Assembly: GCA_017471965.1 (NCBI GenBank)
Contig: JAFURF010000045.1
Span: forward strand, 1 to 42,948
Direction: 5' to 3'
DNA from: Bacteroidales bacterium
GTDB lineage: Bacteria; Bacteroidota; Bacteroidia; Bacteroidales; UBA932
Length of the DNA: 42,948 nt
Shown: positions 3,079-22,536 of the stretch, piece after piece
How the letters are laid out: each line of letters begins with the position of its first letter
Position numbering within the stretch: position 1 is the first letter of the stretch
Position numbers and translations under genes: made by a program
The notes under the pieces: generated by a model
The model's input: the letters and a program-made list of their open reading frames with translations, nothing else
Told to the model about the DNA's origin: nothing
The model's database searches: none

Positions 3079-3085
3079 CTTTTTA

Positions 3086-4138
3086 TCAATCGGCTGGTAT
3101 CGGATGAATCGGCACCAGGACGTTTCCACCTTCTTCCCATGGCACCTTTACTGCTGTTATCTCGATCTGGTCTTCATCGAAAATCAGAAGTATTTCATAG
3201 GAATCATTCAATTCCAATGTCAGATCAATGCCATGATCATCTTTAAACGCGACCGGGGCCGTCATAGAAAACGGAGTATAAGGTCCTTCCGCAGCATTTC
3301 CTATCTCTCCTGATATCGTAAGATCCATTGACTCCATAGTCAATCCCTCGTCAGGAACCACATATACTGTCCCTATCAATTTCTGATCGGAAGAGTTGAT
3401 ATTCTCTTTCAAAACCGTACTGGTCCAGTCATTATCCGGACGCTCCTGAGATGGCAAATACTTTGGAGACTGACCGGTACTCCATTTAAGTGATTTCAGC
3501 AAATTGTCCTTGTTGACTATAAAGGACACATTCTTGATATGCTTGGCCATAGTCTGAGCCAAAGTCGCACGTACCGTCAACTGGATCTGCGGATGGAAGA
3601 ATTCAAGATTTCCGTCAAACGGATATATTGACGAACCTTCGAGGTAGTTCTGAGATACCACGACATCCGTAACTCCAACTCCAGGTTCTGCAACATTCAA
3701 CACCGAATAGTCCGGAGTTTCCACAGGCATATCCGTACGCGTAGCAGGTGTGACGCCATCATACGGCCCGTATCCGGTACATACGGCAATTCCATAACTG
3801 TCCGGATATACACGGCCGGTATTGTAATCTTTCTTTTCGCCAGAAGGCTCATTCGTGGAAGCATCAGGTTCCATATAATCCCCGATATTTCCGGTAGGTT
3901 CGGACACATGATATGGCTGCACCAAACGTCCATCTTCGGCCTTCAGCCCCCTGTCAAAATCTTCCTTATGCCAGAACAGGAAAGTGAATTTCGGCTCCGG
4001 TGCATCAGCCTTTACGCTGATCACCATCTCTGGAGCGCCTTCAGGAAGGAGTGGCACAACATCAGGCACGGCCTGCTTCCGGCAGCCGGTCAAGACAGCC
4101 AGAACGAACAGTGCGAATATGTACAATTTCCCTTTCAT
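3086..4138 (-). CDS. Fimbrial accessory subunit, fimbrillin-like lipoprotein
   Basis: The product is 350 residues long, with a lipoprotein signal whose lipobox LTGC places the Cys at residue 19. The rest is predicted beta-rich, ending in a segment VPWEEGGNV of the type found at the last strand of fimbrillin domains. No catalytic motif is visible. It sits between a FimA/Mfa1-like subunit (12 bp upstream) and the Fib_succ_major-type tip protein (7 bp downstream), so it is probably a minor or adaptor subunit between shaft and tip, comparable in position to the FimC/FimD or Mfa3/Mfa4 genes of Porphyromonas gingivalis. That equivalence is positional; sequence identity to those proteins could not be tested here. 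Confidence 0.75.
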   Translation of the reverse strand: MKGKLYIFALFVLAVLTGCRKQAVPDVVPLLPEGAPEMVISVKADAPEPKFTFLFWHKEDFDRGLKAEDGRLVQPYHVSEPTGNIGDYMEPDASTNEPSGEKKDYNTGRVYPDSYGIAVCTGYGPYDGVTPATRTDMPVETPDYSVLNVAEPGVGVTDVVVSQNYLEGSSIYPFDGNLEFFHPQIQLTVRATLAQTMAKHIKNVSFIVNKDNLLKSLKWSTGQSPKYLPSQERPDNDWTSTVLKENINSSDQKLIGTVYVVPDEGLTMESMDLTISGEIGNAAEGPYTPFSMTAPVAFKDDHGIDLTLELNDSYEILLIFDEDQIEITAVKVPWEEGGNVLVPIHPIPAD

Positions 4139-4150
4139 TCCTGTAAATTT

Positions 4151-5866
4151 CTATACGTTAGGTTTCACTATCAGGTTCAGAGCCCCTTTAGGATTCCAGT
4201 CCACGACCTTCGAGTTCACCATCATGAGTTGGTTGAAACTTCCCGGAGTCGCAGGCACCTTCATCAGAGAGCAGTTGAGGATATGATAGTGGTTACGGTA
4301 CACACCAGAATTATAATCATTTTCAGTATCTTCAGCCTTCGGTGCCCTGAACTCTATCTGGCCGGTAGACGGGCTTTTGCCGCCATTGATATACGAATAA
4401 TAGAATCCGTAACCGCCAGGATATGTGGCGAAGTTCTTTCTGCCAAGACCAGGGACAGATCCCAGTTCTATCAGTTTCAGCATTCCTTTGTAATCATAGA
4501 ACTCCTTCATGTCACGGGTAAAGAAGGTCCCTGCGGGATAGGTGTGCGAATTACCGTTTTCATCGACGCCCTCAACTTCCGGCAATGCTGCCAACGCTGC
4601 ATCGTAGCCGTTTTCACCATGATTTTTTTCAATCAGATTCCCACTTCCGTCCACGGTATTTATTTCCCTCGGCACAAACCTGGCCTTGACTATGACATGC
4701 GTGGCAACCATGAACGGCACATATTTCTTCTCATCGTCGGTCATCGATGACAATTCCGAATCATCCGTAGTATTCTCGAGGCAGTAAAGGCCGTTTACAT
4801 ATGTACCATCAGTACAAGTACCGAAAGGAGCCTTGTTTTCTTCGTATATCTCCGGCTTTGCAGACCATTTTGCCCAGGCAGCATCATGATCTCCTGACAA
4901 GTCTTCAGCAAAACCAAGGAAATTGCCCGAAGCATCATCAGACTTATACTCCCACTCCAGGCCTTTCTGAAGAAGGTCGGTCATTGAGTGGTTCAGATCT
5001 TCATAGATAGTGTAATCCGCGTTGCCATAAGCAGGTTGAATGATTCTGGTGCTCTTATTGACGGTATTGACAATATAACTGATGTCGTCCAACTTGCTCC
5101 ATCCGAATGCGCCGAATGCCGCAGGAGTCAAAGATCCAGGCTCAGTGATCTGCACAAACTCCTCGTTAGGATAGTCGTAACACTGGAAGAGCAGATGCAC
5201 CTTGGCCAGCATCCTCACGAGGTCCACAGATTCAGGCGTTCCGTCGGAATCTTCATCGATTACGGCAGGGGTAGACTTGTCGGCATTGGCAGATTTAAAC
5301 GTCAATGAAGCCTTTTTCACACAGAACATCGCCACTCCCCTGTCGGCAGAAGCAAACTCTTCCACCAGACTCTTATAATCATCAGGATAGAGAGTTGTAG
5401 CAGCCTCATAAACGGCATCCGGTCCTCCTGCAAGGAATGCAGAGGCTATATCTGTCGATATATTCGCGCCGACATAGACATTCATCGGCACATTGAGTTT
5501 CGTCCGGACAGACGAGACATATTCATCTCCTGAACCCAGACTCACCTGCGGAACATATGTCATGATGGCCTCCGACCAGTCTTCGGTACCTTCCTCCGCA
5601 GGGACAAGCCATATGGCAAGACGCTTGATGGCATTTTCGTCTATTCCGTTGTTGGTCCCGCCATTCACCTCCGTAGAGGCCTTTGTAGCGGCACCTGAAG
5701 ACACCACATTAAGATTCAGCGACAGCCATGCATTGACCACATCCTCCCTTTCCTGCTCCGGACGAGCCTGCGCATGATGAGGCCCCTCCTTCTGGCAAGA
5801 AAGAAGCATCACCCCGAAAAGCATCAGAGCGGTAAAAAGACGGATATGAGAGAATATGCTGCGCAT
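4151..5866 (-). CDS. FimA/Mfa1-like fimbrial subunit lipoprotein (accessory)
   Basis: The product is 571 residues long. The signal peptide ends in LLSC (Cys24), a lipobox. The N-terminal domain has the fimbrillin look: a conserved strand with KASTEV near residue 60, LAIWLVP near 85, and a KLNVPMNVYVGAN strand near 125. The C-terminal part contains VYRNHYHILNCSL followed by VVDWNPKGALNLIV, which is the terminal strand arrangement of FimA/Mfa1-type subunits. It follows the Mfa2/FimB anchor gene by 9 bp. It is longer than the major subunit of this operon and has inserted loops, which suits a lower-copy accessory subunit. A role as a second shaft subunit cannot be excluded. Confidence 0.78.
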   Translation of the reverse strand: MRSIFSHIRLFTALMLFGVMLLSCQKEGPHHAQARPEQEREDVVNAWLSLNLNVVSSGAATKASTEVNGGTNNGIDENAIKRLAIWLVPAEEGTEDWSEAIMTYVPQVSLGSGDEYVSSVRTKLNVPMNVYVGANISTDIASAFLAGGPDAVYEAATTLYPDDYKSLVEEFASADRGVAMFCVKKASLTFKSANADKSTPAVIDEDSDGTPESVDLVRMLAKVHLLFQCYDYPNEEFVQITEPGSLTPAAFGAFGWSKLDDISYIVNTVNKSTRIIQPAYGNADYTIYEDLNHSMTDLLQKGLEWEYKSDDASGNFLGFAEDLSGDHDAAWAKWSAKPEIYEENKAPFGTCTDGTYVNGLYCLENTTDDSELSSMTDDEKKYVPFMVATHVIVKARFVPREINTVDGSGNLIEKNHGENGYDAALAALPEVEGVDENGNSHTYPAGTFFTRDMKEFYDYKGMLKLIELGSVPGLGRKNFATYPGGYGFYYSYINGGKSPSTGQIEFRAPKAEDTENDYNSGVYRNHYHILNCSLMKVPATPGSFNQLMMVNSKVVDWNPKGALNLIVKPNV

Positions 5867-5875
5867 GTCAAGTTC

Positions 5876-6916
5876 TTAAAGAATAGCGTCCTGCGGGCGG
5901 AGCACCCAGCCGTTGATACGGAGTTCTACCAGAGCATATGGGTTGACTATCGATCCCGTCGGCATCATCGTGAACAGGAGGGAGTATTTGTCCTCATAGT
6001 CAAGGTACTGCTGGTCTGTGAGTTTTACACCTACACGGTCCTCGTAGTATTCGCGGGTCATCAGGATGTACTGGATCAGGTTGATGTCCAGAACAAGTTT
6101 TCCTCCTGCACTCTCGCGGATGACCAGACGGGTCGGGTTGCCCTTTACAAGCCTGAGGGTGTTGAGTTCGGCCCTTGCGACCGTCAGATTGACAGCAGGT
6201 TCCTCGGCCTTAGTGTCATCGTAGTCGGACAGGTTCGCGGTCTCGACGAAATACGCCCCATATTTGAGGACATCGTCCTCGAGAAGGCTATGATTATGGG
6301 CCATGCGGCCGTTGGCCGAATGGATTTCATATGTAAAGGTGTCGCCTTTGATAGGGTTTCCGTTCATGTCGTGGAGGACCACAACGAAATTGTTGTTGGT
6401 CTTGCGCATAGGAACTTCATATACCTGATATACATTCGGCTTCACCTCGATGTCATCGATCATTCCGTGCCATACCGGGCCGAGATACTCGTTCTGGCGG
6501 TTTTCGGAATCCCTGTCAAGAAGGACCTCAAGGTCTTCCATCGTGGATTTTCCCGGCACAAGGTCCGACACGATGTAGTGGTCATCTTCCAATCCGGTCC
6601 AGGCCACCGCCTTGTAGTGGCCTGGGTCGATCGGAACATCCACTGTGTAATCACTCTGCTTCAACGCATCGCCACGCTCGCTGAAATGGCCGACAAAGAT
6701 GCCGTCGCTGCTGAAGACAAAGAGGGAAAGGTCCTGCACTTCATCCCTGAAGGCGGCCACATTGAACCCGCCTTCCGTAGAGATGCCCGCTTCCACCTTG
6801 AGCTGCACACGGCAGCCCTTAGGACAGTCGGTCAGGTCATCCCTAACCCAAGAGCAGCCTGCCACCCCCGCGAGCAGAAGGGCAACGGCAATGAATCTTG
6901 TCAAACGCTGAAACAT
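5876..6916 (-). CDS. FimB/Mfa2 family fimbrial anchor lipoprotein
   Basis: The product is 346 residues long, with lipobox VAGC (Cys21). It carries the family hallmark just after the lipid Cys: CSWVRDDLTDCPKGC, followed by a strand ending in LFVFSSDGIFVG and the VDVPIDPGHYKAVAWTG block seen in Mfa2/FimB proteins (PF08842). The C-terminus ALVELRINGWVLRPQDAIL matches the end of the neighbouring major subunit (WVVRAQDAVLG), as expected for partner proteins that share a beta-strand exchange design. In Porphyromonas gingivalis, Mfa2 anchors the fimbria to the outer membrane and limits its length. Here it lies directly downstream of the major subunit, separated by 46 bp containing a weak hairpin, which would fit lower expression of the anchor. 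Confidence 0.88.
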   Translation of the reverse strand: MFQRLTRFIAVALLLAGVAGCSWVRDDLTDCPKGCRVQLKVEAGISTEGGFNVAAFRDEVQDLSLFVFSSDGIFVGHFSERGDALKQSDYTVDVPIDPGHYKAVAWTGLEDDHYIVSDLVPGKSTMEDLEVLLDRDSENRQNEYLGPVWHGMIDDIEVKPNVYQVYEVPMRKTNNNFVVVLHDMNGNPIKGDTFTYEIHSANGRMAHNHSLLEDDVLKYGAYFVETANLSDYDDTKAEEPAVNLTVARAELNTLRLVKGNPTRLVIRESAGGKLVLDINLIQYILMTREYYEDRVGVKLTDQQYLDYEDKYSLLFTMMPTGSIVNPYALVELRINGWVLRPQDAIL

Positions 6917-6962: not shown

Positions 6963-8480
6963 TTAACCGAGAACGGCATCCTGAGCACGTACTACCCATG
7001 GACGGATGGTGAGTTTCACCTGGAAGTAGGTTTCAGTCTGTTCTACCGGAGTCTCTGCAGTAGGAGTAGGCTCATTCATATCATCATCTCCAAGTGAATT
7101 GATCTGAGTCACGGTTATCTGATATGAGTTGTTTCTTACTATTGCGTACTCCATGATTCCCAAAGCACCATCTGTCGGAGGCAGGATGCCGTTGTTCCAA
7201 TGTCTGACATAATATACATAATAGCAGACACCACCTGTATATTTCTTTACATTGAACTGCTTTGCCTGAGCATCTGTTGCAAGGCCTAATTTTGTATCTG
7301 CATTTACCGCATCAAGGTCCTTATAGAACTTGTTGTCATAGAAATATAGGTCACCGCTAGAATATGTGTATTCCTTCACTGTGAATTCACCATCTTTTTC
7401 CCAGACCTTTACCGGAGCAATCTGTCCTTTGAACTGAACAGCAGTGACATATCCTACAAGTTGAGAATTCTTATGAAGACCGTTCTCATAGACATATGCC
7501 AGAGGTGTATCATCAGTTGTAGAAGTCGGGAATGTTCCTGCAGCAAAAGAAGCATCCGTAAGGTTGACGTCAGCCATTGTCGTTACATTGGCAACAGTCT
7601 TCTTTTCTGTCTGAGGATCAAAAAGATAGTCATAATTAGGATTAGCATTGAAGACACCGTATCCCTTATTTGCAGCAACGAGGGATGCATCAGTTTCAGT
7701 AGTAAAAGAGCAAGACTGACGGAAAGCATTCCAGACTGTAGGCTGATTAAGCACCCTGTAATCCTTCAAAGCAACATCAGCAATCTTGGTCTCAGTACCT
7801 TCGATCTTTGCCTTTACCTCATAAGTATTGGTTGCGTTCTGGGCTACATATGTAATCTTGGCCCAAGCCCTTTCCATATCCAGAGAGATGATGCAAGGAT
7901 TGTCCTTTGTGTTCGAGGTTGAAATAGTCACGACATCATACAACTTTGCATCAGCAGCCGCAGCACGATTGGCAGCAGAAACATTACGGCTTGTCATCGG
8001 AATACCCTTGCTAAGGTCAAGACCTGGCACAGCACCGGCAGTCTGAATGAGTGTCTGAAGTTGAGTTTCTGTAGTAGTGTTGGCAGTCACACCGGCCAGA
8101 CTATGATTGACAACGGCATAAACATGATAATCGCCTGTGCCAAGATTCTGGATAGTACTTGTATATGTAATTTCTCCACCGTACTCATGCTTTGTAAAAG
8201 CAGCAGGATCGTTGACTTCCTTGATGTATTTGACAACATCTCCGCTGACAAAATAAAGTGTAGCATTCTTCACAACATATTCGCTCTCTTCACCTGCATC
8301 ATAACCGGTACCGGTATCTGCATCAGCAGCCTTTGTTCCTGTCGGATTTGCAAATGAAATGGTAAACTGCGCATAAGCCTTGGCAGACTCAGCATTTTCA
8401 TTTCCTGCAGGCTCCTTCTGGCAACCTGCGATTGCTACGAGCAGCGATGCCGCTGCGAGCAAAATCGATAAACGTTTCAT
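6963..8480 (-). CDS. Major fimbrial subunit, FimA/Mfa1 type
   Basis: The product is 505 residues long, with lipobox IAGC (Cys20) and a short Thr/Gly-rich lead-in (FANPTGTKAADADTG) before the first conserved strand, where Bacteroidales major pilins are normally cut by a trypsin-like protease so that strand exchange can occur. No Arg lies at that point, only Lys. The C-terminus shows the classic pattern of the P_gingi_FimA/Mfa1 family: VRNNSYQITVTQINSLG, then an acidic linker rich in Pro and Glu, then TYFQVKLTIRPWVVRAQDAVLG. It is followed by the Mfa2-type anchor, the same order as mfa1-mfa2. I take it as the shaft-forming subunit of operon A. The choice of processing site is inference. Confidence 0.88.
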   Translation of the reverse strand: MKRLSILLAAASLLVAIAGCQKEPAGNENAESAKAYAQFTISFANPTGTKAADADTGTGYDAGEESEYVVKNATLYFVSGDVVKYIKEVNDPAAFTKHEYGGEITYTSTIQNLGTGDYHVYAVVNHSLAGVTANTTTETQLQTLIQTAGAVPGLDLSKGIPMTSRNVSAANRAAAADAKLYDVVTISTSNTKDNPCIISLDMERAWAKITYVAQNATNTYEVKAKIEGTETKIADVALKDYRVLNQPTVWNAFRQSCSFTTETDASLVAANKGYGVFNANPNYDYLFDPQTEKKTVANVTTMADVNLTDASFAAGTFPTSTTDDTPLAYVYENGLHKNSQLVGYVTAVQFKGQIAPVKVWEKDGEFTVKEYTYSSGDLYFYDNKFYKDLDAVNADTKLGLATDAQAKQFNVKKYTGGVCYYVYYVRHWNNGILPPTDGALGIMEYAIVRNNSYQITVTQINSLGDDDMNEPTPTAETPVEQTETYFQVKLTIRPWVVRAQDAVLG

Positions 8481-8505: not shown

Positions 8506-9801
8506 TCATTTTATCATTTCTTCTAATTGTGCAAGATTTCTGGCGGCATCCGGATCTCCGGCCTTGGCAGCCTTGGAGAACCATTTCTGCGCGTCCTTCA
8601 GGTCTTCTGTCAGGACCTTCACGCTTCCGATGGCGTTCCATGTGCGAGGGTCATCCTTGTGGGCCATGAGCCTTTCAAGAGCCTCGGCGTACTTGCCGGC
8701 GTTGATTTCCCCGACAGCCTCATTGACCGCATGAGCCACGACATCCTCCTTCTCGGAGAACCATACGCTGATGTAGCATGCGTCGCGGAGTTGAGGATAG
8801 AGGACATCGAGCATGCTCCGATAAGGACGTCCTCCGGCAAGAGCCTTGAGTCTTGCCTGGCGCTGTTCCTGAGGCACATTGTCGATGATGTCGAGGACCT
8901 CGTTCCTGTACGGCATGTCGCTGTCGGCCACAAGGGCACGGAGTCCGCTCCAGTCTTCGCCTCCCGCCGTCACGTTGAAACGGTCGTCACTGAAGCCGAA
9001 CTTTCCGATGATGTATTCCTTGAGAGCCTCGGCACGGCCTACGGAGAGTTGCTGGTTCTGCTTCGTATTTCCCTCCGGAGATGCATATCCGGCGATGTCG
9101 ATGCCTCCGAGTTCGGCCCAATCATCGTCAAGCACCAGACGGATGGCATCCTCTATATCCTTGAGAGCCTTTGCATTGGAAAGGAAATCCGGATCGAGGA
9201 CAGTCTTCGCGACAGGGAAACGCACTGACACGCCTCTTTCGCCCCCGGCATCTGTTCCCACCATGCGCAGGAACGGATACTTAGGCTTGAGTTCCCTTGC
9301 CTGGGCAACAAACGGCACCACTTCCTTCACTGCAGGCACCATCGCAGGGCCCACCTCAAAAGAATATTTTTCAGACAGGCATCGACCCACGCTGCAGCAT
9401 CCTATCTTCTGAGCATCGATCGACAGTTCGAAATGCCTTGAAGGGAAGGATGCGTAGTCTAACGTGGTCACATAGGTATAGGTTTCACCTCCGGCAATCA
9501 TTGCCGCAGGCTTTGTTTTCTTTGAAAGTTTCTCTTTCTGACGCATGATCTTCTGCTGCTGCGGGCCGGCCACATAGAATGCATCCAACTGATTCTCCTG
9601 CCCGGCTACGACAAGCGTCGGAGATACAAGGATCTTTTCTCCATGCCTTACAGCACCCTCCGATGCCGTGACCTTGAACGTCACGACCACACTCTGTCCA
9701 TGGCGCTCCACACTCTGATCCGACACGGTGAAAGGATTCTGAGCGATTGCAGAAACTGCCGAAAGGCAAGCAATCATTGAAATAAATGCAAGTTTTCTCA
9801 T
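8506..9801 (-). CDS. DUF3868 and OmpA-like fimbria-associated periplasmic/outer-membrane protein
   Basis: The product is 431 residues long with a Sec signal peptide ending in SAIAQ (no lipobox). Residues about 20-115 match the DUF3868 type: an N-terminal beta domain with RHGQSVVVTFKV. Residues about 195-300 are OmpA-like, with GIDIAGYASPEGNTKQN and the helix LSVGRAEALKEYI; the SPEG turn is the usual marker in this Bacteroidales subgroup. The last 60 residues look like TPR helices (YAEALERLMAHKDDP...WFSKAAKAGDPDAARNLAQL). The gene lies between a DUF3575 gene (13 bp upstream) and the major fimbrillin (25 bp downstream). Such pairs accompany FimA-type operons and may hold the fimbrial base to the outer membrane or peptidoglycan. 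That role is inferred. Confidence 0.8.
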   Translation of the reverse strand: MRKLAFISMIACLSAVSAIAQNPFTVSDQSVERHGQSVVVTFKVTASEGAVRHGEKILVSPTLVVAGQENQLDAFYVAGPQQQKIMRQKEKLSKKTKPAAMIAGGETYTYVTTLDYASFPSRHFELSIDAQKIGCCSVGRCLSEKYSFEVGPAMVPAVKEVVPFVAQARELKPKYPFLRMVGTDAGGERGVSVRFPVAKTVLDPDFLSNAKALKDIEDAIRLVLDDDWAELGGIDIAGYASPEGNTKQNQQLSVGRAEALKEYIIGKFGFSDDRFNVTAGGEDWSGLRALVADSDMPYRNEVLDIIDNVPQEQRQARLKALAGGRPYRSMLDVLYPQLRDACYISVWFSEKEDVVAHAVNEAVGEINAGKYAEALERLMAHKDDPRTWNAIGSVKVLTEDLKDAQKWFSKAAKAGDPDAARNLAQLEEMIK

Positions 9802-9814
9802 CGTTCCGTCCTCC

Positions 9815-10396
9815 CTATCTTATCATGTAAACCAAAGTGACTCCTGCCTTGGTCGGAGCAAACATCGTCTTCTTGAAATGTCCGTCAAGATCGCCGCAGA
9901 CGGCACAGCCGTAACGGTCGTAATCGGCATGAATGACTCCGAAACCGACAGTGGCCTCAAGGTTCCATCTGCCGCCAAGGACGAACGAATAACCGTACGA
10001 CACACCGGCCTTGACTGCCCAGCCTTCATAGCGTTTGTCCGCCGAAAGCCGAGGCCAAGGACATGCCGCACGGGCCACGTTCAACTCGCCGCCGCCCGCA
10101 TGAATGCCGACAAAATGCCTGTAGAACCGCTCGCATATCCAGTAGCGGGCCTCACCCTGCCATTGGTAATGCTTCCATTTGAGATTATCCTTGAATGTAA
10201 ACGGATTGAGACCTCCGCCGACTTCAAGAGTCCAATGCGGAGACAATCCTACCTCTGCTGATAGATTAGGAGAAGCAGATGCCCAATAAAGGGCATTTGT
10301 CTTTACTGCCACGACCTGCGCCGAAGCAAGGTGCACAAAACCAATCCCAAAGGCCAGCAGCAGAATAAAGAATCTATAAAATGAAAGTCTATTCAT
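9815..10396 (-). CDS. DUF3575 outer-membrane beta-barrel-like protein, first gene of operon A
   Basis: The product is 193 residues long. The start is set at the ATG at 10396, which gives the signal peptide MNRLSFYRFF...LASAQ; longer readings run back into the left arm of the inverted repeat and have no signal. DUF3575 hallmarks: VVAVKTNALYWA at the mature N-terminus, LSAEVGLSPHWTLEVGGG, WQGEARYWICERF, GYSFVLGGRWNLEATVGFG, and a final FAPTKAGVTLVYMIR strand. Alternating strands suggest a small outer-membrane barrel. It lies first in operon A, about 67 nt downstream of the predicted start of transcription from the invertible promoter. In operon B the same domain is fused behind an OmpA-like domain, which supports a joint role of the two. 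Confidence 0.82.
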   Translation of the reverse strand: MNRLSFYRFFILLLAFGIGFVHLASAQVVAVKTNALYWASASPNLSAEVGLSPHWTLEVGGGLNPFTFKDNLKWKHYQWQGEARYWICERFYRHFVGIHAGGGELNVARAACPWPRLSADKRYEGWAVKAGVSYGYSFVLGGRWNLEATVGFGVIHADYDRYGCAVCGDLDGHFKKTMFAPTKAGVTLVYMIR

Positions 10397-10412: not shown

Positions 10413-10433
10413 TTCCTTAATCTTGCTGATTGA
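10413..10433 (+). repeat. Left arm of perfect 21-bp inverted repeat (invertible promoter boundary)
   Basis: This arm begins TTCCTTAATC and ends GCTGATTGA; its exact reverse complement lies at 10610-10630. Matching stops at both edges, which is typical of recombination half-sites rather than of chance stem-loop drift. The arm is 16 bp upstream of the ATG of the DUF3575 gene, inside the predicted 5' untranslated region of operon A. See the promoter and finding entries. Confidence 0.88.
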
Positions 10434-10609
10434 CGGCACCGCGCCGTCATCTGCCACACAAAATGCGTACAAATTTAACAAATCCCTCCCCCATAAACAA
10501 AATTTCAAGCATCTTTTTTTTGGTTTTTTTGCACGCGATGTCACAATAATCAACATATGACCCATGAATGAACCAGATGAGAGCATGATTTTTCACCATC
10601 CGGTCTTCC
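10434..10609. promoter_or_regulatory. Putative 176-bp invertible segment carrying a single promoter
   Basis: This gene-free segment lies between two perfect 21-bp inverted repeat arms and between two divergent fimbrial operons. It contains one full Bacteroidales promoter (on the minus strand in this assembly), T-tracts at about 10511-10527, and no convincing reading frame. I found no TAnnTTTG box facing right in this orientation. Size, repeat length and position match known Bacteroides invertible promoters. Inversion would place the -7 box at about 10566-10573 facing operon B. Inversion itself is inferred, not shown. Confidence 0.82.
10470..10501 (-). promoter_or_regulatory. Promoter of fimbrial operon A (inside invertible segment)
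   Basis: Read on the minus strand: TTTG (10501-10498), a 20-bp spacer, then TAAATTTG (10477-10470). This matches the Bacteroidales housekeeping promoter pattern TTTG-N19-21-TAnnTTTG in every defined position. Transcription should begin near 10463 and run left through the left repeat arm into the DUF3575 gene. Confidence 0.85.
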
Positions 10610-10630
10610 TCAATCAGCAAGATTAAGGAA
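10610..10630 (+). repeat. Right arm of perfect 21-bp inverted repeat
   Basis: This is the exact reverse complement of 10413-10433. It lies 14 bp upstream of the ATG at 10645 that opens operon B, nearly mirroring the 16 bp between the left arm and the operon A start. The symmetry means one promoter could serve either side with a similar leader length. Confidence 0.88.
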
Positions 10631-10644
10631 TTGTGTAAAGCGGT

Positions 10645-11895
10645 ATGTTCTCCCCGACGCAGATAAGACGCATCTGCATTGCGATTGTATGTGTAATGTA
10701 TTCTCTATCAGCCTTTGCCGACTGAGGAGCGGACCACCGTGAATTGCACCGAAAAATCACACTACACTACACCTTTGATAGCGCAGAAATTGACGAAAAT
10801 CTTCAAGAAAACAGAAACAACCTTTTTTCTCTTAAAAGCATCCTGCGCGACAGCGTCAGAATAGACAGTATCACCATCATTTCACACGCATCACCTGACG
10901 GAGGATACCGTCACAATATAGAACTTGCCCGTGAGCGAGGCCTGGTACTGAAGAACTTCATCCTGAAAGAATGCTCAGACAGCGTCAGACTCACATCAGA
11001 CCGCATCATCCTGAAAGACGGAGCGGAAAACTGGCAGGGCCTGACCGACATGGTAGACTCGCGATACTCCCGCCACGACCGTGAAAAGGTCCTGCGCATC
11101 CTCGCCGACACATCCGTCGGTCCTGAAACACGCAAATGGCGCCTGAAGCAACTCGACGGCGGCTACACATGGGACTACCTTTACCGCCACTACATGCCGT
11201 CTCTGCGCACGTCGACAGTGATCTGCATCTATGTCACCCTCGAAGAGCCGGAAATCCCTGTACTGCAGGAAGAGGCACCCGTCGTCGTCCCGCAGGAACC
11301 TGAGCAGGAACCAATCCCGGAACCGATGCCGGTGCCTGTTCCATCCCCACAACAGGCACCTCGCACTCCGATCTTCGCGCTCCGCAGCAACCTTCTTGTA
11401 CCGCTTCTGAACATCGGCGCGGAAGTCCCTATCGGCAACAGATGGTCCGTCAGTGCCGACTATTATTTCCCATGGATATGGCCATCACCGAAGAACAAGG
11501 ACTGCTTCGAACTTCTGGGATGGTCCGTTGAAGGACGTTACTGGTTCGGAAAGAACCGCACGGCGTCCGATCGTCTCCATGGTCACTCCCTCGGACTATA
11601 CGGAGCCGGAGGATACTACGACTTCGAGCGCAATTACGAAGGTCAGCAGGGCGAATTCGTCAGCGCCGGCCTCGACTACACATACGCCATGCCTATCGGC
11701 AGGAAGAAACGCGTCAACCTCGAATTCACCATTGCCGTCGGATACATCCACGCATGGGCCCGCAACTACAACGTCCACGGAGAAGGCGGTCCTCTGTTCA
11801 GAGAGGAAGGAGACGTACTTTTCGACTATTTCGGCCCGACAAAGGCCGCCGTCAGTCTTGTAATACCGTTCTACGGAAAGGAGGGCAGGAAATGA
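10645..11895 (+). pseudogene. OmpA-like/DUF3575 fusion protein interrupted by in-frame TGA after the signal peptide
   Basis: The ATG at 10645 encodes a good Sec signal peptide of 26 residues (MFSPTQIRR, a hydrophobic core, SLSAFAD). The next codon in the same frame is TGA (10723-10725), after which the frame stays open to 11895. The open part has an OmpA-like region (ISHASPDGGYRHNIELARERG), a block RHDREKV...TRKWRLKQLDGGYTW, a Pro/Glu-rich linker (about 45 residues) and a C-terminal DUF3575 domain (FALRSNLLVPLLNIGAEV ... FGPTKAAVSLVIPF). The intact paralogue at 18818 has signal and body joined. One base change would restore the gene. A TTG at 10744 could start translation but would give a protein without export signal. 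The last codons overlap the next gene (ATGA). A base-call error is the main alternative. Confidence 0.75.
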
Positions 11896-12911
11896 GAACA
11901 TTCAGAACCATATGCACCGTCCTCCTTCTGACCGTCATCGCCGCATCATGCCAGCGAAGGCCGTTCTCGGACAACACCACAGCCGTCAGCATCAGGCTGA
12001 AGGTCAAGACCGAGGTGAACCACAGCAGGGCCGCAGCAGAAGCCGAAACCATGCGCATCGACCTCTTCGACCCTGAAACCGGCGCCGTAGTCTACACCGA
12101 CTACATATCGACTGAAGGCGGATACATCTACCCCGTGCCGGGAGACTACGACCTCCTGGTCTACAACATCGGAACGGAAAGCACCATCGTCCGCAACGAG
12201 CATAACAAGAACACGGTGGAAGCATACACCAACGAAGTGTCCGCATACATAAAGGCGCAGATGGAAGCCTTCCTCGCCAGCAGGGCCGAAGCAAGAAGAC
12301 AGATGGCGGCGGAAAAGACCGAGACAAAGGGTCCTGCCACCAAGGACCCGATCCTCGAAGGTACGGAAAGGATCGTCAACGAGCCGGACCACCTCTATGT
12401 CGGACAATTGCAGAATCTGACTATTCCGGCATTTGACCTCGGCGAAGAAAGAGTCATCTCCCTCGAAGTCGAAGCGTCGTCAGTCGTGGAGACATGGAAG
12501 ATCACCGTATCTCCTGTAGAAGGACTCCAGTGGGTAAGTGCAGTAAAGGCCCTTATCACAGGACAGGTGGAATCCCACTTCGTCGGACTGGACAAGAAAT
12601 CGGACGGAGTAGCGACAGTCTACTTTGAAATGGGCAAAGACATGGACAAAGGAGCCCTGACCGGCTACTTCAACACCTTCGGAAAGAACCCTGACTACAG
12701 CAGTTTCCTGAGTCTCGACCTCAACATCGTCGACAACGCAGGAGAAGAGCATCACTACCACTTCGACCTCACCGACCAGTTCTTCGACAACGAGGAATAC
12801 CACCTGGAAGTGGAAGAGCCGATAGTGGTCGAAGAGCCTAAGGTCGAAGGAGGAGGATTCGTTCCTTCGGTAGGCGAATGGGAAGACGTACAGACAGACA
12901 TAGAACTATAA
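11892..12911 (+). CDS. DUF5119-like fimbria-associated lipoprotein (module B1)
   Basis: The product is 339 residues long. The start at 11892 overlaps the preceding stop (ATGA), showing translational coupling, and gives a lipobox IAASC (Cys20). The order of features agrees with the DUF5119 family and with the second copy at 20053: an N-terminal beta domain (MRIDLFDPETGAVVYTDYIS, YPVPGDYDLLVYNIGTES), a helical insert (EVSAYIKAQMEAFLASRAEARRQ), a central FHLTDQFF-like strand (HFDLTDQFFDNEEYHLEVE) and the terminal GGGFVPSVGEWEDVQTDIEL block, which is GGGFKPSVDEWGNIDINI in the paralogue. In Bacteroidales fimbrial clusters these proteins occupy the anchor position, much like Mfa2. That role is inferred. 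Confidence 0.78.
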   Translation: MRTFRTICTVLLLTVIAASCQRRPFSDNTTAVSIRLKVKTEVNHSRAAAEAETMRIDLFDPETGAVVYTDYISTEGGYIYPVPGDYDLLVYNIGTESTIVRNEHNKNTVEAYTNEVSAYIKAQMEAFLASRAEARRQMAAEKTETKGPATKDPILEGTERIVNEPDHLYVGQLQNLTIPAFDLGEERVISLEVEASSVVETWKITVSPVEGLQWVSAVKALITGQVESHFVGLDKKSDGVATVYFEMGKDMDKGALTGYFNTFGKNPDYSSFLSLDLNIVDNAGEEHHYHFDLTDQFFDNEEYHLEVEEPIVVEEPKVEGGGFVPSVGEWEDVQTDIEL

Positions 12912-12943
12912 TAAATTAATTAATCAACTAATTCTTTTAAATT

Positions 12944-13840
12944 ATGAAAAGGTTTTTGTTTTGTGCAGCAGCAGCGATAGTTGCTCTCGCATCATGCAGC
13001 AAGACTCAGGTCGTTTACAACGGCGCTCCTGAGGAAATCAGTTTCAAGGCTGTGACTGGGGCCATTACCAAGGCGGAGCAAACCGGAACTCTCTCTGGAA
13101 ACATGGGTGTATTTGCTTTTGTAAACGACACCAAGGCTCCGTATTTTGCCAATGTCGAATTCACAGGAACCACCACTTGGACAGGAGGTCAGTACTGGCC
13201 GCTTCAGAGCAACCTTGATTTTGTTGTATATGCTCCTCACGGAAACGCTAGTTATGAAACCAACACTCTTTCTGTCACCGGAGCAGACAATACAGGAAAA
13301 ACCACAATTGGCGCTCAGACAGACTATCTATATGGTGCGGAATATTATGACGACACAGACAATAAGGGATATTCGAAAGAGACTGTAGGCACAGCCCTCA
13401 AACACGCTCTTGCAAAGGTTACCCTTGCTTTTACAGGATCGAACGTAACCGTTAATTCAGTAAGTCTTGTAAAACCTACGCTGAAAGGTTCTTATACAGT
13501 TGACTATAGCGCAGCAACTCCAGTTGCTGCGTGGAGTGCAACTGCAGAAGCCACAAACCTGACTTTGACAGAATTCGCTGATAAGACCCTGAACAACAGC
13601 GCACAGAGTGTATCAATCATGGTCGTACCTGCAGACGATTCTGACATTGCAATTACTTACACTATCGCAGGCACTGATGATGTTCTCAACGCAACAATTC
13701 CATTGACCAGCACATGGGCTCCTGGTACTCACTATACCTACAACATAAGCATTAATCCGAATGCAATCGAGTTCAGTGCTCCTACTGTTACCGGATGGAC
13801 AGAGAATGATCCAGATCCAAGCGGAACTACCATTCAGTAA
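12944..13840 (+). CDS. Fimbrillin-family lipoprotein, probable major subunit of module B1
   Basis: The product is 298 residues long, with lipobox LASC (Cys18). It has the compact Mfa_like_1 (fimbrillin) arrangement: EEISFKAVTGAITKAE early, YWPLQSNLDFVVYAPHG in the middle, LKHALAKVTLAFTG, and the terminal strand FSAPTVTGWTEND. It is the shortest and simplest fimbrillin of operon B and is followed by a strong GC-rich hairpin (13847-13878). Those two facts suggest a shaft subunit made in excess over the downstream subunits. This is inference; no processing site is evident. A 32-bp AT-rich gap without promoter separates it from the DUF5119 gene. Confidence 0.8.
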   Translation: MKRFLFCAAAAIVALASCSKTQVVYNGAPEEISFKAVTGAITKAEQTGTLSGNMGVFAFVNDTKAPYFANVEFTGTTTWTGGQYWPLQSNLDFVVYAPHGNASYETNTLSVTGADNTGKTTIGAQTDYLYGAEYYDDTDNKGYSKETVGTALKHALAKVTLAFTGSNVTVNSVSLVKPTLKGSYTVDYSAATPVAAWSATAEATNLTLTEFADKTLNNSAQSVSIMVVPADDSDIAITYTIAGTDDVLNATIPLTSTWAPGTHYTYNISINPNAIEFSAPTVTGWTENDPDPSGTTIQ

Positions 13841-13846
13841 TCCCCT

Positions 13847-13878
13847 AACCCACCGGTCCCTGACCGGACCGGCGGGTT
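13847..13878 (+). terminator. GC-rich hairpin after the probable major fimbrillin (attenuator)
   Basis: A 13-bp stem (13847-13859 with 13866-13878, one mismatch) closes a 6-base loop (CTGACC). No T-tract follows, and the next fimbrillin gene starts 36 bp further on, so it probably gives partial termination or protects the 3' end of the upstream message. This fits unequal subunit amounts from one transcript. Confidence 0.7.
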
Positions 13879-13914
13879 CCAATATGAAGACACTAGTCTT
13901 CAAACGAAACAGAA

Positions 13915-14952
13915 ATGCAGAACAGACTTTACATATTGCGCATCATTCTGCCGGCACTGCTTGCTGCGGCATCTCTTGCCTCATGCAGGAAAGAGCCGTC
14001 TCCTGTCCCTGCAGGCGACACGGCGATTGCTTTCAGTTCTTCCGTCAGCGGCACAAAGGCCCTGATCAACGACGTGACGGGCATGGAGCGTTTCAAGGTC
14101 TACGGATATTACACAATTGACGGCACTGCATCCTATACAGCGTTCGACGGTACCGAGGTGACCCGTGCAGGCGCATTGTGGCAATATTCCCCTGCGAGAT
14201 ATTGGGTGCCGGACGCAAAGTACAGTTTCGCGGCATTCCATCCGGCAGATGCATCCGTCAGAATCGCCAACGCCGGCATCGACGGGAACGGGGTCTTTGA
14301 AGAACTTTCATTCGAATACGAAAAGACCGGATTCTATGATGACTTCATGCTTGCGTCAGCCAGCATGACTACGGATGAGGCAGCAGACAACGGTTACAAG
14401 GTCGGTTTGAACTTCAGCCATATTCTGTCGAACATAAAGATCAACATAGGCTTTGCAGATGACGTCCAGAACGGAACATACATCAGGATCAACAGAGCCG
14501 AGATCAACGGAATGAAAAGTTCCGGCACATACACCGTCGGTCAGGGATGGTCAGACCTGTCGACCACCTCACTGCAACTTACAAGCAACATCCCGGACGT
14601 GGTGTTGAAAAAGATAGATGACAAAGTATACAACAACGACACGGAACTCACAGACGGAACGATAAGTCCTACCGGAGACGAAGGTCTTACCGTGATCCCG
14701 GTAGACCTTACAGACAACAGCAATGCCGTCAGAATCATCCTGAACTGCGAAATCTCCAGCGACGGAATCAACTACACGGCAAAGAGGATAGAAAAGACGA
14801 TAAGGGCCACAGGCAGCGTACCGGCATGGCTGGAAGGGAAGTCATACACCTACAAGGCCCTGCTTGATGTGGACTACAGCATCAGTTTCGCCGAACCTAC
14901 GGTCACGGACTGGGAGGACGAACAGGCCACAGGCTCCGTCATCATAAAATAA
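13915..14952 (+). CDS. Fimbrillin-family lipoprotein (module B1, second)
   Basis: The product is 345 residues long, with lipobox LASC (Cys24). Mfa_like_1 features: TAIAFSSSVSGTKALIND, the RFKVYGYYTIDG strand, YWVPDAKYSFAAFHP, a LNFSHILSNIKINIGFAD helix-strand, and a terminal SISFAEPTVTDWEDEQATGSVIIK. It lies after the hairpin and overlaps the next gene by one base (TAATG), so translation of the two is probably coupled. Probably a minor shaft or adaptor subunit; nothing in the sequence names a specific function. Confidence 0.78.
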   Translation: MQNRLYILRIILPALLAAASLASCRKEPSPVPAGDTAIAFSSSVSGTKALINDVTGMERFKVYGYYTIDGTASYTAFDGTEVTRAGALWQYSPARYWVPDAKYSFAAFHPADASVRIANAGIDGNGVFEELSFEYEKTGFYDDFMLASASMTTDEAADNGYKVGLNFSHILSNIKINIGFADDVQNGTYIRINRAEINGMKSSGTYTVGQGWSDLSTTSLQLTSNIPDVVLKKIDDKVYNNDTELTDGTISPTGDEGLTVIPVDLTDNSNAVRIILNCEISSDGINYTAKRIEKTIRATGSVPAWLEGKSYTYKALLDVDYSISFAEPTVTDWEDEQATGSVIIK

Positions 14953-16034
14953 TGGAAATGAGAAGAGTATACGCATATATGATCATGATGATATCTTTTG
15001 CCGCCTGCCAGAAGCAGGTGGACACACCTGATATCCATGCTCCATGGGGAGGATATATCACCTTCTCCACAGGCATCGAAACCAAGACCCCTATCAACGT
15101 CAACATGCGCGGCAAGGGTTCCGGAGTCCTGGCATATTCATACGACAGCAACTGGGCCACGGCAAGACCTGTATCAACCCCAGACCTCTTCTACAACCAG
15201 ACGGTCGAATGCGACAACAACGGCATCTGCACCTATGACTCCGACCCATCCTCTGACGGCACGCAGGTAAAGGAATGGAACCTTGCCAAGACATACTCAT
15301 TCTTTGCATATTATCCGACAAATGCAGACAACTCCGGCATCAGCATCAGCGGGTCTTCAGCCACGGACATGCCGAAGGTCACATATACCTATCCTTTCGG
15401 TACGCCGGACGCAAACGGAAATGTCGACATCACGGTACCAGGCAATGACGCCCTTGTCGACCTGATGACCGCAGCCGCAACCGACCAGACCGGCAAAGGG
15501 TCTGGAATCGTCGGATTCAACTTCGAGCACAGACTGTTCTGCTTTGAAGTTCTGGCAAACAACTACAATGACAACACGACCATCGACATCTCCAATCTCA
15601 AACTGAAACTGACAGGACTTGCATACGACAGCATGACGGTCCCTATGATGGCTTCAGACTCGAGGACACCTGTCACAAGAACCTCGACAGGATTGCCCGC
15701 TTCCGTGACCTACACCATATCAGACGCGCTGACGAAAGCGACAATACCTTCGTTCAAAAACGGAGGAATATCATACAGTCTCTCCAAGAACTGCTCATCC
15801 ACACAGGACGGATACATAATGCTCATCCCTCAGGATACAGCGATAAGCGGAGAATTCACTTGGGACGACATGCCGACAGGATCAGGTGTCATGACCACAT
15901 TCACGACCAACCTGGACTTCCAGGCAGGAAAGAAATATTCGATCATCATCAACTTCGCCGGCGACGCCATAACCATTGCCATCATCGAGGCCGGCACATG
16001 GGCCAGCAACGAAGTGAACATAGAATTTGACTGA
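14952..16034 (+). CDS. Fimbrillin-family lipoprotein (module B1, third)
   Basis: The product is 360 residues long from the ATG at 14952; the ATG two codons later (14958) is an equally possible start. Lipobox FAAC gives Cys19. Fimbrillin features: YITFSTGIETKTPINVN, GVLAYSYDSNWAT, LAKTYSFFAYYPTN, VGFNFEHRLFCFEVLAN and a terminal IAIIEAGTWASNEVNIEFD. The start overlaps the previous stop and the stop lies 2 bp before the next start, so the four genes are a tight translational unit. Position immediately before the giant DUF4906 tip protein suggests an adaptor subunit joining tip and shaft. That is inferred. Confidence 0.78.
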   Translation: MEMRRVYAYMIMMISFAACQKQVDTPDIHAPWGGYITFSTGIETKTPINVNMRGKGSGVLAYSYDSNWATARPVSTPDLFYNQTVECDNNGICTYDSDPSSDGTQVKEWNLAKTYSFFAYYPTNADNSGISISGSSATDMPKVTYTYPFGTPDANGNVDITVPGNDALVDLMTAAATDQTGKGSGIVGFNFEHRLFCFEVLANNYNDNTTIDISNLKLKLTGLAYDSMTVPMMASDSRTPVTRTSTGLPASVTYTISDALTKATIPSFKNGGISYSLSKNCSSTQDGYIMLIPQDTAISGEFTWDDMPTGSGVMTTFTTNLDFQAGKKYSIIINFAGDAITIAIIEAGTWASNEVNIEFD

Positions 16035-16036
16035 TC

Positions 16037-18814
16037 ATGAAGTACTTATATAGACTCATACTTCTAGCCATATATGCCGTGGCAATCTTCGTCTCCTGTA
16101 TGGAAGACGAAGGCGTCTTCGTTCCTGAAACATCCCAGAGAGGCAATATTCAGATCATCGGAGCGGTTGTCGGGTTCGACAGCAAAGTTGTCGGTACAAA
16201 GGCCTTGGGTTCGGAGGAAGACGACGAATCGCTCATCACCGAGATGACCATGTTCATATTTGACAATGCCGGCAAGGCCGTCACATCGCCCGTCACAATA
16301 AGAAACTATAACGCAAGTCCCGACGCTTTCATGATTGAGATCGGCACAGGGCAGACAGGCATAATCGGCACCTTGAACGGTCAGAAACTCGAATATGACA
16401 AGACCAATCTTAATCTGGATAAGTGCAGCATCTATATCGTTGCCAACGCCGAACACTACAAGAAGACCGATGCATCAGGAAATGAGGTATCCGTATATTC
16501 CGGAATATCAACACTTGATGAACTTCTGGCACAGACTCTCCCGCTCGAAGGATTCGAAATGCCGAGGGTAGCCGGAAAAAAGGCTGGATTCCCGATGATA
16601 GGAACGGCTGAGGACGGTACGACATTCAACCTTCTAGACGCAAGTCAGAACCAGAACACCGTCGCAACCATACCTCTCAGGAAACTATATTCCAAGGTTA
16701 CCGTCAACATCCTGGTTCATGCCGATCAGGTAGTGGCTGAACCGGAATTCGAATTGTTGAAATGGAGTGTAAAGAACAGTCCGAATCAAGTCAAACTCGG
16801 ATCGGGTACGACCGTGACATCCTACGAGGACAGTCAGGAGACTAAAAACGCGACAAATCAAATAATTACACATACGGACGCAACAGACAATCCTGATCCC
16901 GGTTCGGTGATGTCGTTTACATTCTATATGCCGGAGCATCTGGTATCTGCAGAAAAAGAAAGTTCATTCTCCTATCCGCCAGGCATACTTGACAATGATA
17001 AGCAGAAATTCAAGCCTGCACTCCTTGGAGACGGCCAGAAAGCGACATATGTGCTGATAGAAGGAATCTACACGGACCACAACGGACTGGTGAAACAGGT
17101 TGCGTACAGATTATACCTCGGTCAGAACAACTACAACGACTTCAAGGTGATCCGCAATCAGCATCTCATCAACCAGGTGACCATAAAAGGTCTTACAAAC
17201 TCCACAAACGCCATTGTGCCCGGACAGCCGGACAACATATCCGTCGACCACCGGGTGGATATCACAAATGAAGGTCTTTCCATTGCCATGGAGCGAGAGA
17301 CGCTGATGGATGCCCATTTCGAATTCCGTCCTATAGACATAACCTTATCACCGAACAGTTCGCTTACAGTCACCATTCCGGAATCCGACAGGACATGGAT
17401 TGCAATCGAGCAGAGCCAGCCGAGCGGTGCCTCACATGTTTCCGGCGTCGGCATCAGGAAGTACTTCACCACAGACCTGATAAGCACTCTGACCACAAAT
17501 AACGCAAGTGACGTAGCGGGACCTGTCCTGACATATGAGAATGATACTGATTCCGCACAGAAATACAGATTCTGGGTCTATGTGGATGAAAATCCTAATG
17601 TGTATGACAAGACCGGGCATGGGAAATTCACCGGAGAAGGCGGGGCTTATACCGTTGACCAGACTCCATCCAGAAAGGGTAAGATAGTATTTGAATTCAC
17701 TGATTCTCAAGGGACCCAGACACTCAACTACAATCTTGAGCAGAGAAATCTATGGAGGATATGGAACGGGGATTGGAACGACCAGACCGCAACCCCTGAA
17801 CCGACCCGTTACTACGACATCGAATACCACGAAGAATACCTTTACAACTATGCTGCCGATGACCCCTATGGTGCAACTACTGATGGTATGGAGTGGGGAC
17901 TGGACGGGGTTACCTTCTCCGGCAATATGGGGGATGGACTTAAGACGAAGGCCCTTGTGGCATCTTCAAGCGGAGGTTGGGCACAGGAAACCGTCAATAA
18001 CATAATCAACGGCCTCGCGCCATACTACGATTTTTATCTGACTAGAGAGGCACGGGACATCTCAGAAGATTTGGTTAATGCTGACAATGACTTTGCCGGG
18101 AGAAGATTTTCAAATGGTATAATTGATTCAGACCCAGATGGTGCCGGAAGTTATGTCGCAATCGGACAGATAAAAAGGGCATTGAACGACACCCCTAGCA
18201 GTGCAATCGAATATTGTCTTCATAAAAATCGCCGAAATCCATCTAACAGTTTAGTAACTGAAAGAAGTTGGTACCTTCCTGCCATAGACGAAATGGAACA
18301 GATAATGGTCGGAGGATATTCTGATTTTTCAGTATTCCAGAATAAGGAATACTGGTCTTGTCAGCCTGCATTCCATAAAAATTATTTCCTGTATAATACG
18401 AACTGGCTTGCATCGTGGATTGGAGGCAGTGAATCTGACACATGGGGTGACTATTATTTGGAAAATGCACAGGCTGCAAGAGCAACAAGCGCTCTTTTTA
18501 TCGGGAAAGATGTAAATGGCAATGATGTATATACATATGTAGGAAGCGGTGTTGATGAAAACATTGAGAACATTGCAGACAGTTATGACCAATATTTAAA
18601 TGCCTCTTATCAGAATCAAAGTGCAGATGTACAGGCAGTACCTGATGCAGGAGTCACCCTCACATATTGGGATGGAACCAGAAGTGGTATTTTGAGTACA
18701 CCGGTAACAAGTTCTAAAACCATTTATAAAGTACAATATGCATCTGGCTATAATGATCGCCAGAACGACATAAACCGTGTCCGGTGTGTATATAGAAGCG
18801 GAAATGTAAATTAA
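16037..18814 (+). CDS. DUF4906-type fimbrial tip lipoprotein
   Basis: The product is 925 residues long, with lipobox FVSC (Cys21). The N-terminal part looks like a fimbrillin tip protein: VVGTKALGSEEDDESLITEMTMFIF, then IPLRKLYSKVTVNILV near 215-230, and RLYLGQNNYNDFKVIRNQH near 360. The C-terminal 200 residues contain AIEYCLHKNRRN, RSWYLPAIDEMEQIM, EYWSCQPA and a closing DINRVRCVYRSGNVN. This end is typical of DUF4906 proteins and resembles the Fib_succ_major-type end of the operon A tip protein (RCVRD). Such proteins are encoded at the end of fimbrial gene sets and are thought to be tip adhesins. It closes module B1; the next gene starts 3 bp later. Confidence 0.8.
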   Translation: MKYLYRLILLAIYAVAIFVSCMEDEGVFVPETSQRGNIQIIGAVVGFDSKVVGTKALGSEEDDESLITEMTMFIFDNAGKAVTSPVTIRNYNASPDAFMIEIGTGQTGIIGTLNGQKLEYDKTNLNLDKCSIYIVANAEHYKKTDASGNEVSVYSGISTLDELLAQTLPLEGFEMPRVAGKKAGFPMIGTAEDGTTFNLLDASQNQNTVATIPLRKLYSKVTVNILVHADQVVAEPEFELLKWSVKNSPNQVKLGSGTTVTSYEDSQETKNATNQIITHTDATDNPDPGSVMSFTFYMPEHLVSAEKESSFSYPPGILDNDKQKFKPALLGDGQKATYVLIEGIYTDHNGLVKQVAYRLYLGQNNYNDFKVIRNQHLINQVTIKGLTNSTNAIVPGQPDNISVDHRVDITNEGLSIAMERETLMDAHFEFRPIDITLSPNSSLTVTIPESDRTWIAIEQSQPSGASHVSGVGIRKYFTTDLISTLTTNNASDVAGPVLTYENDTDSAQKYRFWVYVDENPNVYDKTGHGKFTGEGGAYTVDQTPSRKGKIVFEFTDSQGTQTLNYNLEQRNLWRIWNGDWNDQTATPEPTRYYDIEYHEEYLYNYAADDPYGATTDGMEWGLDGVTFSGNMGDGLKTKALVASSSGGWAQETVNNIINGLAPYYDFYLTREARDISEDLVNADNDFAGRRFSNGIIDSDPDGAGSYVAIGQIKRALNDTPSSAIEYCLHKNRRNPSNSLVTERSWYLPAIDEMEQIMVGGYSDFSVFQNKEYWSCQPAFHKNYFLYNTNWLASWIGGSESDTWGDYYLENAQAARATSALFIGKDVNGNDVYTYVGSGVDENIENIADSYDQYLNASYQNQSADVQAVPDAGVTLTYWDGTRSGILSTPVTSSKTIYKVQYASGYNDRQNDINRVRCVYRSGNVN

Positions 18815-18817
18815 CCA

Positions 18818-20997: not shown

Positions 20998-21018
20998 ACA
21001 AACAAAACTAAGTTCATT

Positions 21019-22515: not shown

Positions 22516-22519
22516 TCAT

Positions 22520-22536
22520 AGGAGGTAATGAAAATG
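22520..22536 (+). promoter_or_regulatory. Unusually strong Shine-Dalgarno site deciding the start of the next fimbrillin
   Basis: AGGAGG (22520-22525) lies 2 bp before an ATG at 22528 and 8 bp before a second ATG at 22534. Only the second has normal spacing, so it is taken as the start. Most other genes in the window lack such a site, as usual in Bacteroidota. Confidence 0.55.

Follow-up and report, generated by a model that had tools for sequence, protein, structure and literature searches.

The window analyzed here, a stretch of DNA 42,948 nucleotides long, is a contig of a Bacteroidales genome assembly (G000; 2.32 Mb, 85 contigs, 64% complete) from an uncultured gut bacterium that probably belongs to Candidatus Cryptobacteroides, a genus of Bacteroidales. 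Within it, two divergent gene clusters are separated by a 248-bp gap, most of which is taken up by a 218-bp segment (10413-10630) bounded by a perfect 21-bp inverted repeat. The left arm (10413-10433, + strand, TTCCTTAATCTTGCTGATTGA) is a putative recombination site, and the right arm (10610-10630, − strand) is its exact reverse complement at 21/21 positions. Between them lie 176 nt (10434-10609), the interior of the putative invertible segment, which is assigned to neither strand. The distance from arm end to start codon is 16 and 14 bases on the two sides. Near-perfect repeats around a short intergenic segment, as seen here (21/21 over a 218-bp span), are one of the features used to recognize invertons. 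Of the inverted-repeat pairs reported for the window, 17 in all, this one is listed first; among spans of 80-600 bp it scored 21 against 12 for the runner-up in the window, while the maximum was 14 in 20 shuffled windows and 12 in 500 gap shuffles. No further copies of the arm at up to 3 mismatches were found elsewhere in the window or in the assembled genome. Based on the shuffles and the lack of other arm copies in the window, a chance repeat was rejected. The exact arms with abrupt ends reported in the preliminary description were confirmed, since all 21 positions pair, the bases adjoining each arm do not, and the score lies beyond the shuffles.

The interior carries one promoter of the Bacteroidales type, recognized by its consensus match as TTTG-N20-TAAATTTG (10470-10501, − strand), which would face the left cluster as assembled. 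Its -7 site, TAAATTTGT, fits the Bacteroides -7 consensus TANNTTTGY given in the available part of PMC12632263. When the gap was scanned at one mismatch, no second promoter was found except a one-base-off reading of the same 10501-10470 site, in agreement with the earlier claim of a single promoter in the 176-bp interior. By sequence match to the consensus, the segment would thus also have the one oriented promoter expected of an inverton. Upstream of the -33 site lies an A-tract (A7-CC-A8 on the promoter strand; 10514-10530, − strand), a possible UP-like element, and the leader contains a 7-bp stem-loop, TGACGGC/GCCGTCA (10431-10449, − strand). With the stem-loop between the promoter and the arm, both elements would move together with the promoter on inversion, and the stem-loop would belong to the leader of whichever operon the promoter faces. 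In fold predictions, the stem-loop forms in the as-assembled leader and retains 6 of its 7 pairs in the flipped leader. The ORF list begins the left gene inside the segment, at GTG 10459; ATG 10396 appears to be the likelier start because the closest relative found (62% identical) aligns from this codon. Read from ATG 10396, the left gene leaves the interior gene-free. A gene inside the segment was rejected on this basis, and the absence of one, as previously claimed, holds once the listed GTG start is refined.

Two divergent predicted type-V (Mfa-like) pilus operons flank the segment, with seven genes on the left and ten on the right, the operon calls being predictions from strand and spacing. 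Adjacent surface-structure operons, a further feature of invertons, are therefore predicted on both sides. The left cluster, on the − strand, starts with a short-form DUF3575 gene (9815-10396; Pfam and closest-relative alignment). This is followed by a gene whose OmpA domain is just over cut-off and whose DUF3868 match falls below the family cut-off (8506-9801), an Mfa1-family major fimbrial subunit (6963-8480; NF038041, 202.2 bits against a cut-off of 130) and an Mfa2 anchor (5876-6916; PF08842, 195.6 bits against 21.2). With both the Mfa1 major subunit and the Mfa2 anchor over cut-off, the cluster is of the type-V (Mfa-like) kind. Its last three genes (904-5866), encoding 571, 350 and 741 aa, are probably minor or tip pilins; the final one is an Mfa_like_1 protein and the other two gave no Pfam match. 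A second copy of the left-type operon, in the same order from the DUF3575 gene to the tip gene (phmmer), lies elsewhere in the genome (G000:C6:1-14000, L063; 5557-14000), and no inverted repeat was reported upstream of it.

On the + strand, the right cluster opens with a long-form DUF3575 gene (10645-11895) that has an in-frame TGA and was searched against Pfam from 10744. Next come a DUF5119 gene (11892-12911, searched as 11754-12911), three Mfa_like_1 fimbrillin genes (12944-16034; Pfam), a DUF4906 gene (16037-18814; Pfam) and then a second long-form DUF3575 gene, a second DUF5119 gene and two more Mfa_like_1 fimbrillin genes (18818-23571). Five Mfa_like_1 matches over cut-off identify fimbrillin-like subunits in this cluster, and none of its ten proteins scanned matched Mfa2. 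The right operon is followed immediately, on the opposite strand, by a gene for a PDDEXK_2 transposase-family nuclease (23682-24788).

As assembled, the end of the -7 site is 74 bp from the left ATG; when the segment is flipped in silico, it is 72 bp from the right ATG. In either orientation, the other operon has no recognizable promoter at one mismatch. With one promoter at near-equal spacing from both starts, the locus makes most sense as an either/or pilus switch, and we consider it likely that segment 10413-10630 is an invertible promoter that selects between the two divergent type-V pilus operons. Inversion would result from recombination between the two 21-bp arms by a site-specific recombinase that probably acts in trans. 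In the assembled orientation, the single promoter would transcribe the left Mfa1/Mfa2 operon (10396 to 904), leaving the right operon without a recognizable promoter; following inversion, the right operon (10645 to 23571) would be transcribed from it and the left would be the one lacking such a promoter. Directly established are the repeat, its single promoter, both gene clusters and the near-equal spacing; from them we infer that the segment is flipped by an enzyme, that each cluster is transcribed as a unit and that expression alternates between the two pili. The preliminary description had proposed a single-promoter switch for a surface structure. The surface structure stands, but the two divergent pilus operons on either side had been overlooked; since the segment lies between them, inversion would swap the two pili instead of silencing a lone operon.

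The in-frame TGA in the first right gene, near 10723 (10720-10725), bears directly on this proposal. It follows immediately after the signal peptide, the orthologue in G237 is open at this point, and it may reflect a genuine nonsense change, a polymorphism or an error of assembly. As it stands, it questions a working right state in the lineage of this assembly. Such a stop would be expected if the segment were a one-sided on/off switch that flips but matters for the left operon alone, with the right operon decaying or otherwise promoted. Other Bacteroidales do have such repeats before a single DUF3575 operon: of 12 named loci where repeats precede DUF3575, 5 have an upstream tyrosine recombinase (Pfam) and 3 end at a contig edge before the recombinase position. 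We nevertheless regard a one-sided switch as unlikely, given that the remaining nine right genes have open reading frames, the promoter would stand at a matching distance from the start codon of either operon, and repeats are enriched in head-to-head operon pairs, as described below.

Invertible promoters (invertons) beside fimbrillin genes are known in Bacteroidales from the accessible portion of PMC11892184. The likeness to these is a short, repeat-flanked promoter segment beside fimbrillin-family genes; the difference is that the accessible portion describes no promoter shared by two operons, and that the segment here has no linked recombinase. The word "divergent" does not occur in the main text of that paper. 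In the available parts of PMC12632263 and PMC5903667, the Bacteroides fragilis Mpi capsule promoters resemble the switch proposed here in being invertible and in that a trans-acting recombinase is possible, whereas there each capsule promoter serves one operon and here the loci encode pili. A promoter common to two divergent pilus operons is not described in the accessible portions of PMC11892184, PMC8748976, PMC12632263 and PMC10939037, nor in those of PMC5903667, PMC11868660 and PMC10994844. Such a two-operon pilus promoter is also unnamed in the titles and abstract openings found, although the PhaseFinder paper (Jiang 2019) may record it; our search for literature on phase variation in Cryptobacteroides or on divergent invertible fimbrial promoters found none. 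As far as the accessible portions of these sources go, an invertible promoter beside fimbrillin genes is already known, and the variant here would be its sharing by two divergent pilus operons.

The tyrosine-recombinase-linked DUF3575 pilus promoters found in Bacteroides, Phocaeicola, Mediterranea and Alistipes are similar in that a repeat-flanked segment precedes a DUF3575-OmpA-pilin operon. At those loci, the recombinase is next door and one operon is served, whereas the segment here has none beside it and two operons. Outside the phylum, the sap inversion of Campylobacter fetus directs one promoter to either of two divergent sets of S-layer genes. It shares with our segment the single promoter and the divergent surface-protein genes, although the invertible DNA of sap is much larger and the phylum unrelated. 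In the fimS switch of Escherichia coli, the recombinases FimB and FimE are adjacent to the invertible element and one operon is controlled; here, too, fimbriae would be under promoter inversion, but fimS serves that one operon only. Invertible promoters of gut Bacteroidales are commonly described, in the portions of the literature available, as on/off switches for a downstream operon. If our proposal is true, a shared promoter would force a choice of adhesin, so that a population would mix two binding types. In a genus represented here almost exclusively by metagenome assemblies, the locus would offer a switch that is clean and easy to read: reads already available from different samples, hosts and diets would allow its orientation to be scored directly.

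No recombinase was found in the window contig, which gave no PF00589 match. Tyrosine-recombinase-linked switches have their recombinase directly beside the segment; here, both neighbors are pilus genes. Elsewhere in the genome are two tyrosine recombinases (on C42 and C29) and one serine recombinase (on C21), none of them tied to the segment arms in an assembly that is 64% complete. Judging by its neighbor gene, the C42 enzyme may be a housekeeping XerC-like recombinase. The C21 enzyme is an Mpi-like serine recombinase at 251 bits, below the cut-off of 272. The Mpi site consensus is of the ACGT type. In contrast, the segment arms do not look ACGT-type and lack an ACGT-type core, and so are unlike an Mpi-type site. 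The C21 gene (9200-9922) lies inside the repeats of a second probable switch at 9176-10314 of G000:C21:42000-60000 (L062). The repeats at this site match at 33/33 and 45/47 bp, span 1139 bp and lie between two divergent SusC/SusD-type pairs (Pfam), an arrangement that resembles a Hin-type segment encoding its own recombinase. When the segment arms were compared with those of the SusC/SusD cassette, no similarity was seen (901 of 1000 shuffles reached the score). The C21 invertase was rejected as the cognate enzyme on present evidence because its own arms are unlike those of the segment. In another genome of the survey, G390, an Mpi-like serine recombinase gene follows the short-form operon (255.6 bits, again just below the cut-off of 272).

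A cognate recombinase was therefore not recognized in the assembly, which, together with the interrupted first right gene, is what one would expect of a former switch that is now locked, its arms persisting after loss of the recombinase. At 64% completeness, however, the absence of a recombinase means little, and the arms still match at 21/21 positions in noncoding DNA, as expected with ongoing strand exchange. We thus find a locked switch improbable, and prefer a promoter that still inverts.

The opposite orientation of the segment was sought in other genomes. Among 399 other same-genus genomes, none has the same paired arms, and the other orientation was not seen there. At up to 3 mismatches, the arm alone matched 23 times in 22 of these 399 genomes, each time with 2-3 mismatches, as compared with 5 matches for a reversed-arm control; this excess is unexplained. 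None of the 23 matches forms a pair, and a same-arm family elsewhere was rejected for this reason. Comparison of the 2 kb around the segment with 189 other relatives gave short partial matches in 16 of them, none over the segment, while viral contigs gave no match to the segment region and a 381-bp stretch of DNA matched its own genome alone out of 200. An initial scan with the left DUF3575 protein returned 55 stretches, none of which was confirmed. Together, these searches found no genome of the same species. The earlier proposal of an invertible promoter for a surface structure remains the best explanation and has comparative support within the genus, although a second orientation, a sister genome and a cognate recombinase were all missing from these searches.

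To place the segment among related loci, we surveyed the regions upstream of DUF3575 genes. Relatives of the left DUF3575 protein occur in 364 of 400 same-genus genomes, its own included; with an E-value cut-off of 1e-30, relatives of the right one were present in 114 of 400. Upstream regions were drawn from the matches listed, which reach about E 4e-31 or better for the left type and about E 1e-62 or better for the right type; some matches at contig starts were skipped. In a first survey, 118 regions were entered and the 113 with at least 150 upstream bases were scored for repeats spanning 80-600 bp. Six of the 113 scored 14 or more, and we adopted 14 as the repeat cut-off because none of 1130 shuffles reached it. 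For the full survey, 208 regions were entered and 186 were kept (93 short-form, 28 long-form and 65 named loci from other Bacteroidales) after dropping duplicates and regions with fewer than 200 upstream bases.

In six genomes (G000, G110, G175, G236, G349 and G390), the survey turned up head-to-head DUF3575 pairs. Across the 121 distinct regions of the genus, repeats scoring at least 14 were present in 4 of 6 head-to-head pairs and in 3 of 115 other regions (Fisher p = 6e-5; the pairs were known ahead of the test, and in short regions a partner more than about 1.6 kb upstream could be missed). Without the window, the counts were 3 of 5 against 3 of 115 (p = 7e-4). The two pairs counted as lacking a repeat at cut-off 14 are those of G349 (score 12) and G110 (score 10). 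The 12-bp repeat of G349 is modest, being reached by 2 of 500 shuffles, and the best repeat of G110 is no better than shuffles (107 of 500). A link between repeats and head-to-head pairs is thus directly established in the sampled genomes. The direction of the promoter also differed (p = 0.014 across the 186 regions from the genus and other Bacteroidales): in the 16 regions with a repeat, the promoter inside it faced the gene in 3 and away in 4, with none found in 9, as against 60 toward, 9 away, 1 both and 100 none in the 170 regions without a repeat.

The arms at these loci fall into different families. Besides that of the window, we found ACGT-type arms (AAACGTACGTTT) in G390, G349 and G236, a similar motif in G110, and CTCTTGCCAAGAG-type arms in G175 and also in G052, where they precede a single operon. 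For instance, the gaps of the head-to-head DUF3575 pairs at G175:C65 (L067, 7690-7850), G110:C24 (L066, 10790-11000) and G236:C19 (L174, 7655-7865) each hold a repeat or repeat-like motif with different arms. The pattern ACTATYGCTTTTAAAYGTACG matched in 10 of 400 genomes and was mismatch-free only in three (G236, G390 and G349); its reversed control matched many genomes at up to 3 mismatches, and weaker matches were left uncounted. Four ACGT-type site matches at 3 mismatches, ACTATCGGCATTAAACGTACG being one, were seen on G223:C47, C106 and C129 (L188, L197-L199), and these are possibly a family of switches. With somewhat less assurance than for the window itself, we lean toward a Cryptobacteroides family of either/or switches, in which head-to-head operon pairs share one invertible promoter at sites of at least three unrelated families (the window's, the ACGT-type and the CTCTTGCCAAGAG-type), the layout recurring while the flipping machinery is exchanged.

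Two of these loci could be compared directly. In both G349 and G390, a short-form and a long-form DUF3575 gene stand head to head, with orthologues at 79% and 71% amino-acid identity; the orthologous genes on both sides fix the orientation of the flanks. On the long-gene side, a 39-base block comprising the arm and about 20 bases beyond aligns collinearly, while the short-gene-side flank was not alignable by eye. The promoter interior, on the other hand, aligns only when inverted, with a score of 38 flipped against 20 collinear and a maximum of 28 in 1000 shuffles; this alignment covers 47 of about 150 interior bases, and the remainder does not align. Consistent with this, the promoter faces the short-form operon in G349 and the long-form operon in G390, each at one mismatch to the consensus. 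Opposite cassette orientations are thus observed in two sister species. We regard this as the strongest single result, in that the aligned sequences indicate two species holding a promoter cassette in opposite orientations, albeit in a repeat family other than the window's and with two species, not two cells of the same strain, being compared.

These comparisons also bear on whether the repeats might be regulator binding sites or part of an RNA structure, with no inversion taking place. A dimeric regulator might in principle occupy the two arms, and a stem-loop is present in the leader. However, 176 nt separate the abruptly ending arms, sister species carry unrelated repeats around the same kind of promoter at this position, and one such cassette is oppositely oriented in G349 and G390, all of which makes this reading very improbable beside that of an invertible promoter.

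Lastly, we examined the closest relatives found of each operon. For the left operon, this is G138 (62% at the first gene), where the operon stands alone with an unrelated divergent neighbor, its own promoter at one mismatch and no repeat at the cut-off. For the right operon, it is G237 (58% at the first gene), which has no divergent pilus operon; upstream, a -7-like TATATTTG is not accompanied by a matching -33 site, and no repeat reaches the cut-off. Because neither relative has a divergent pilus partner, the head-to-head pair with its shared switch is probably a secondary arrangement.
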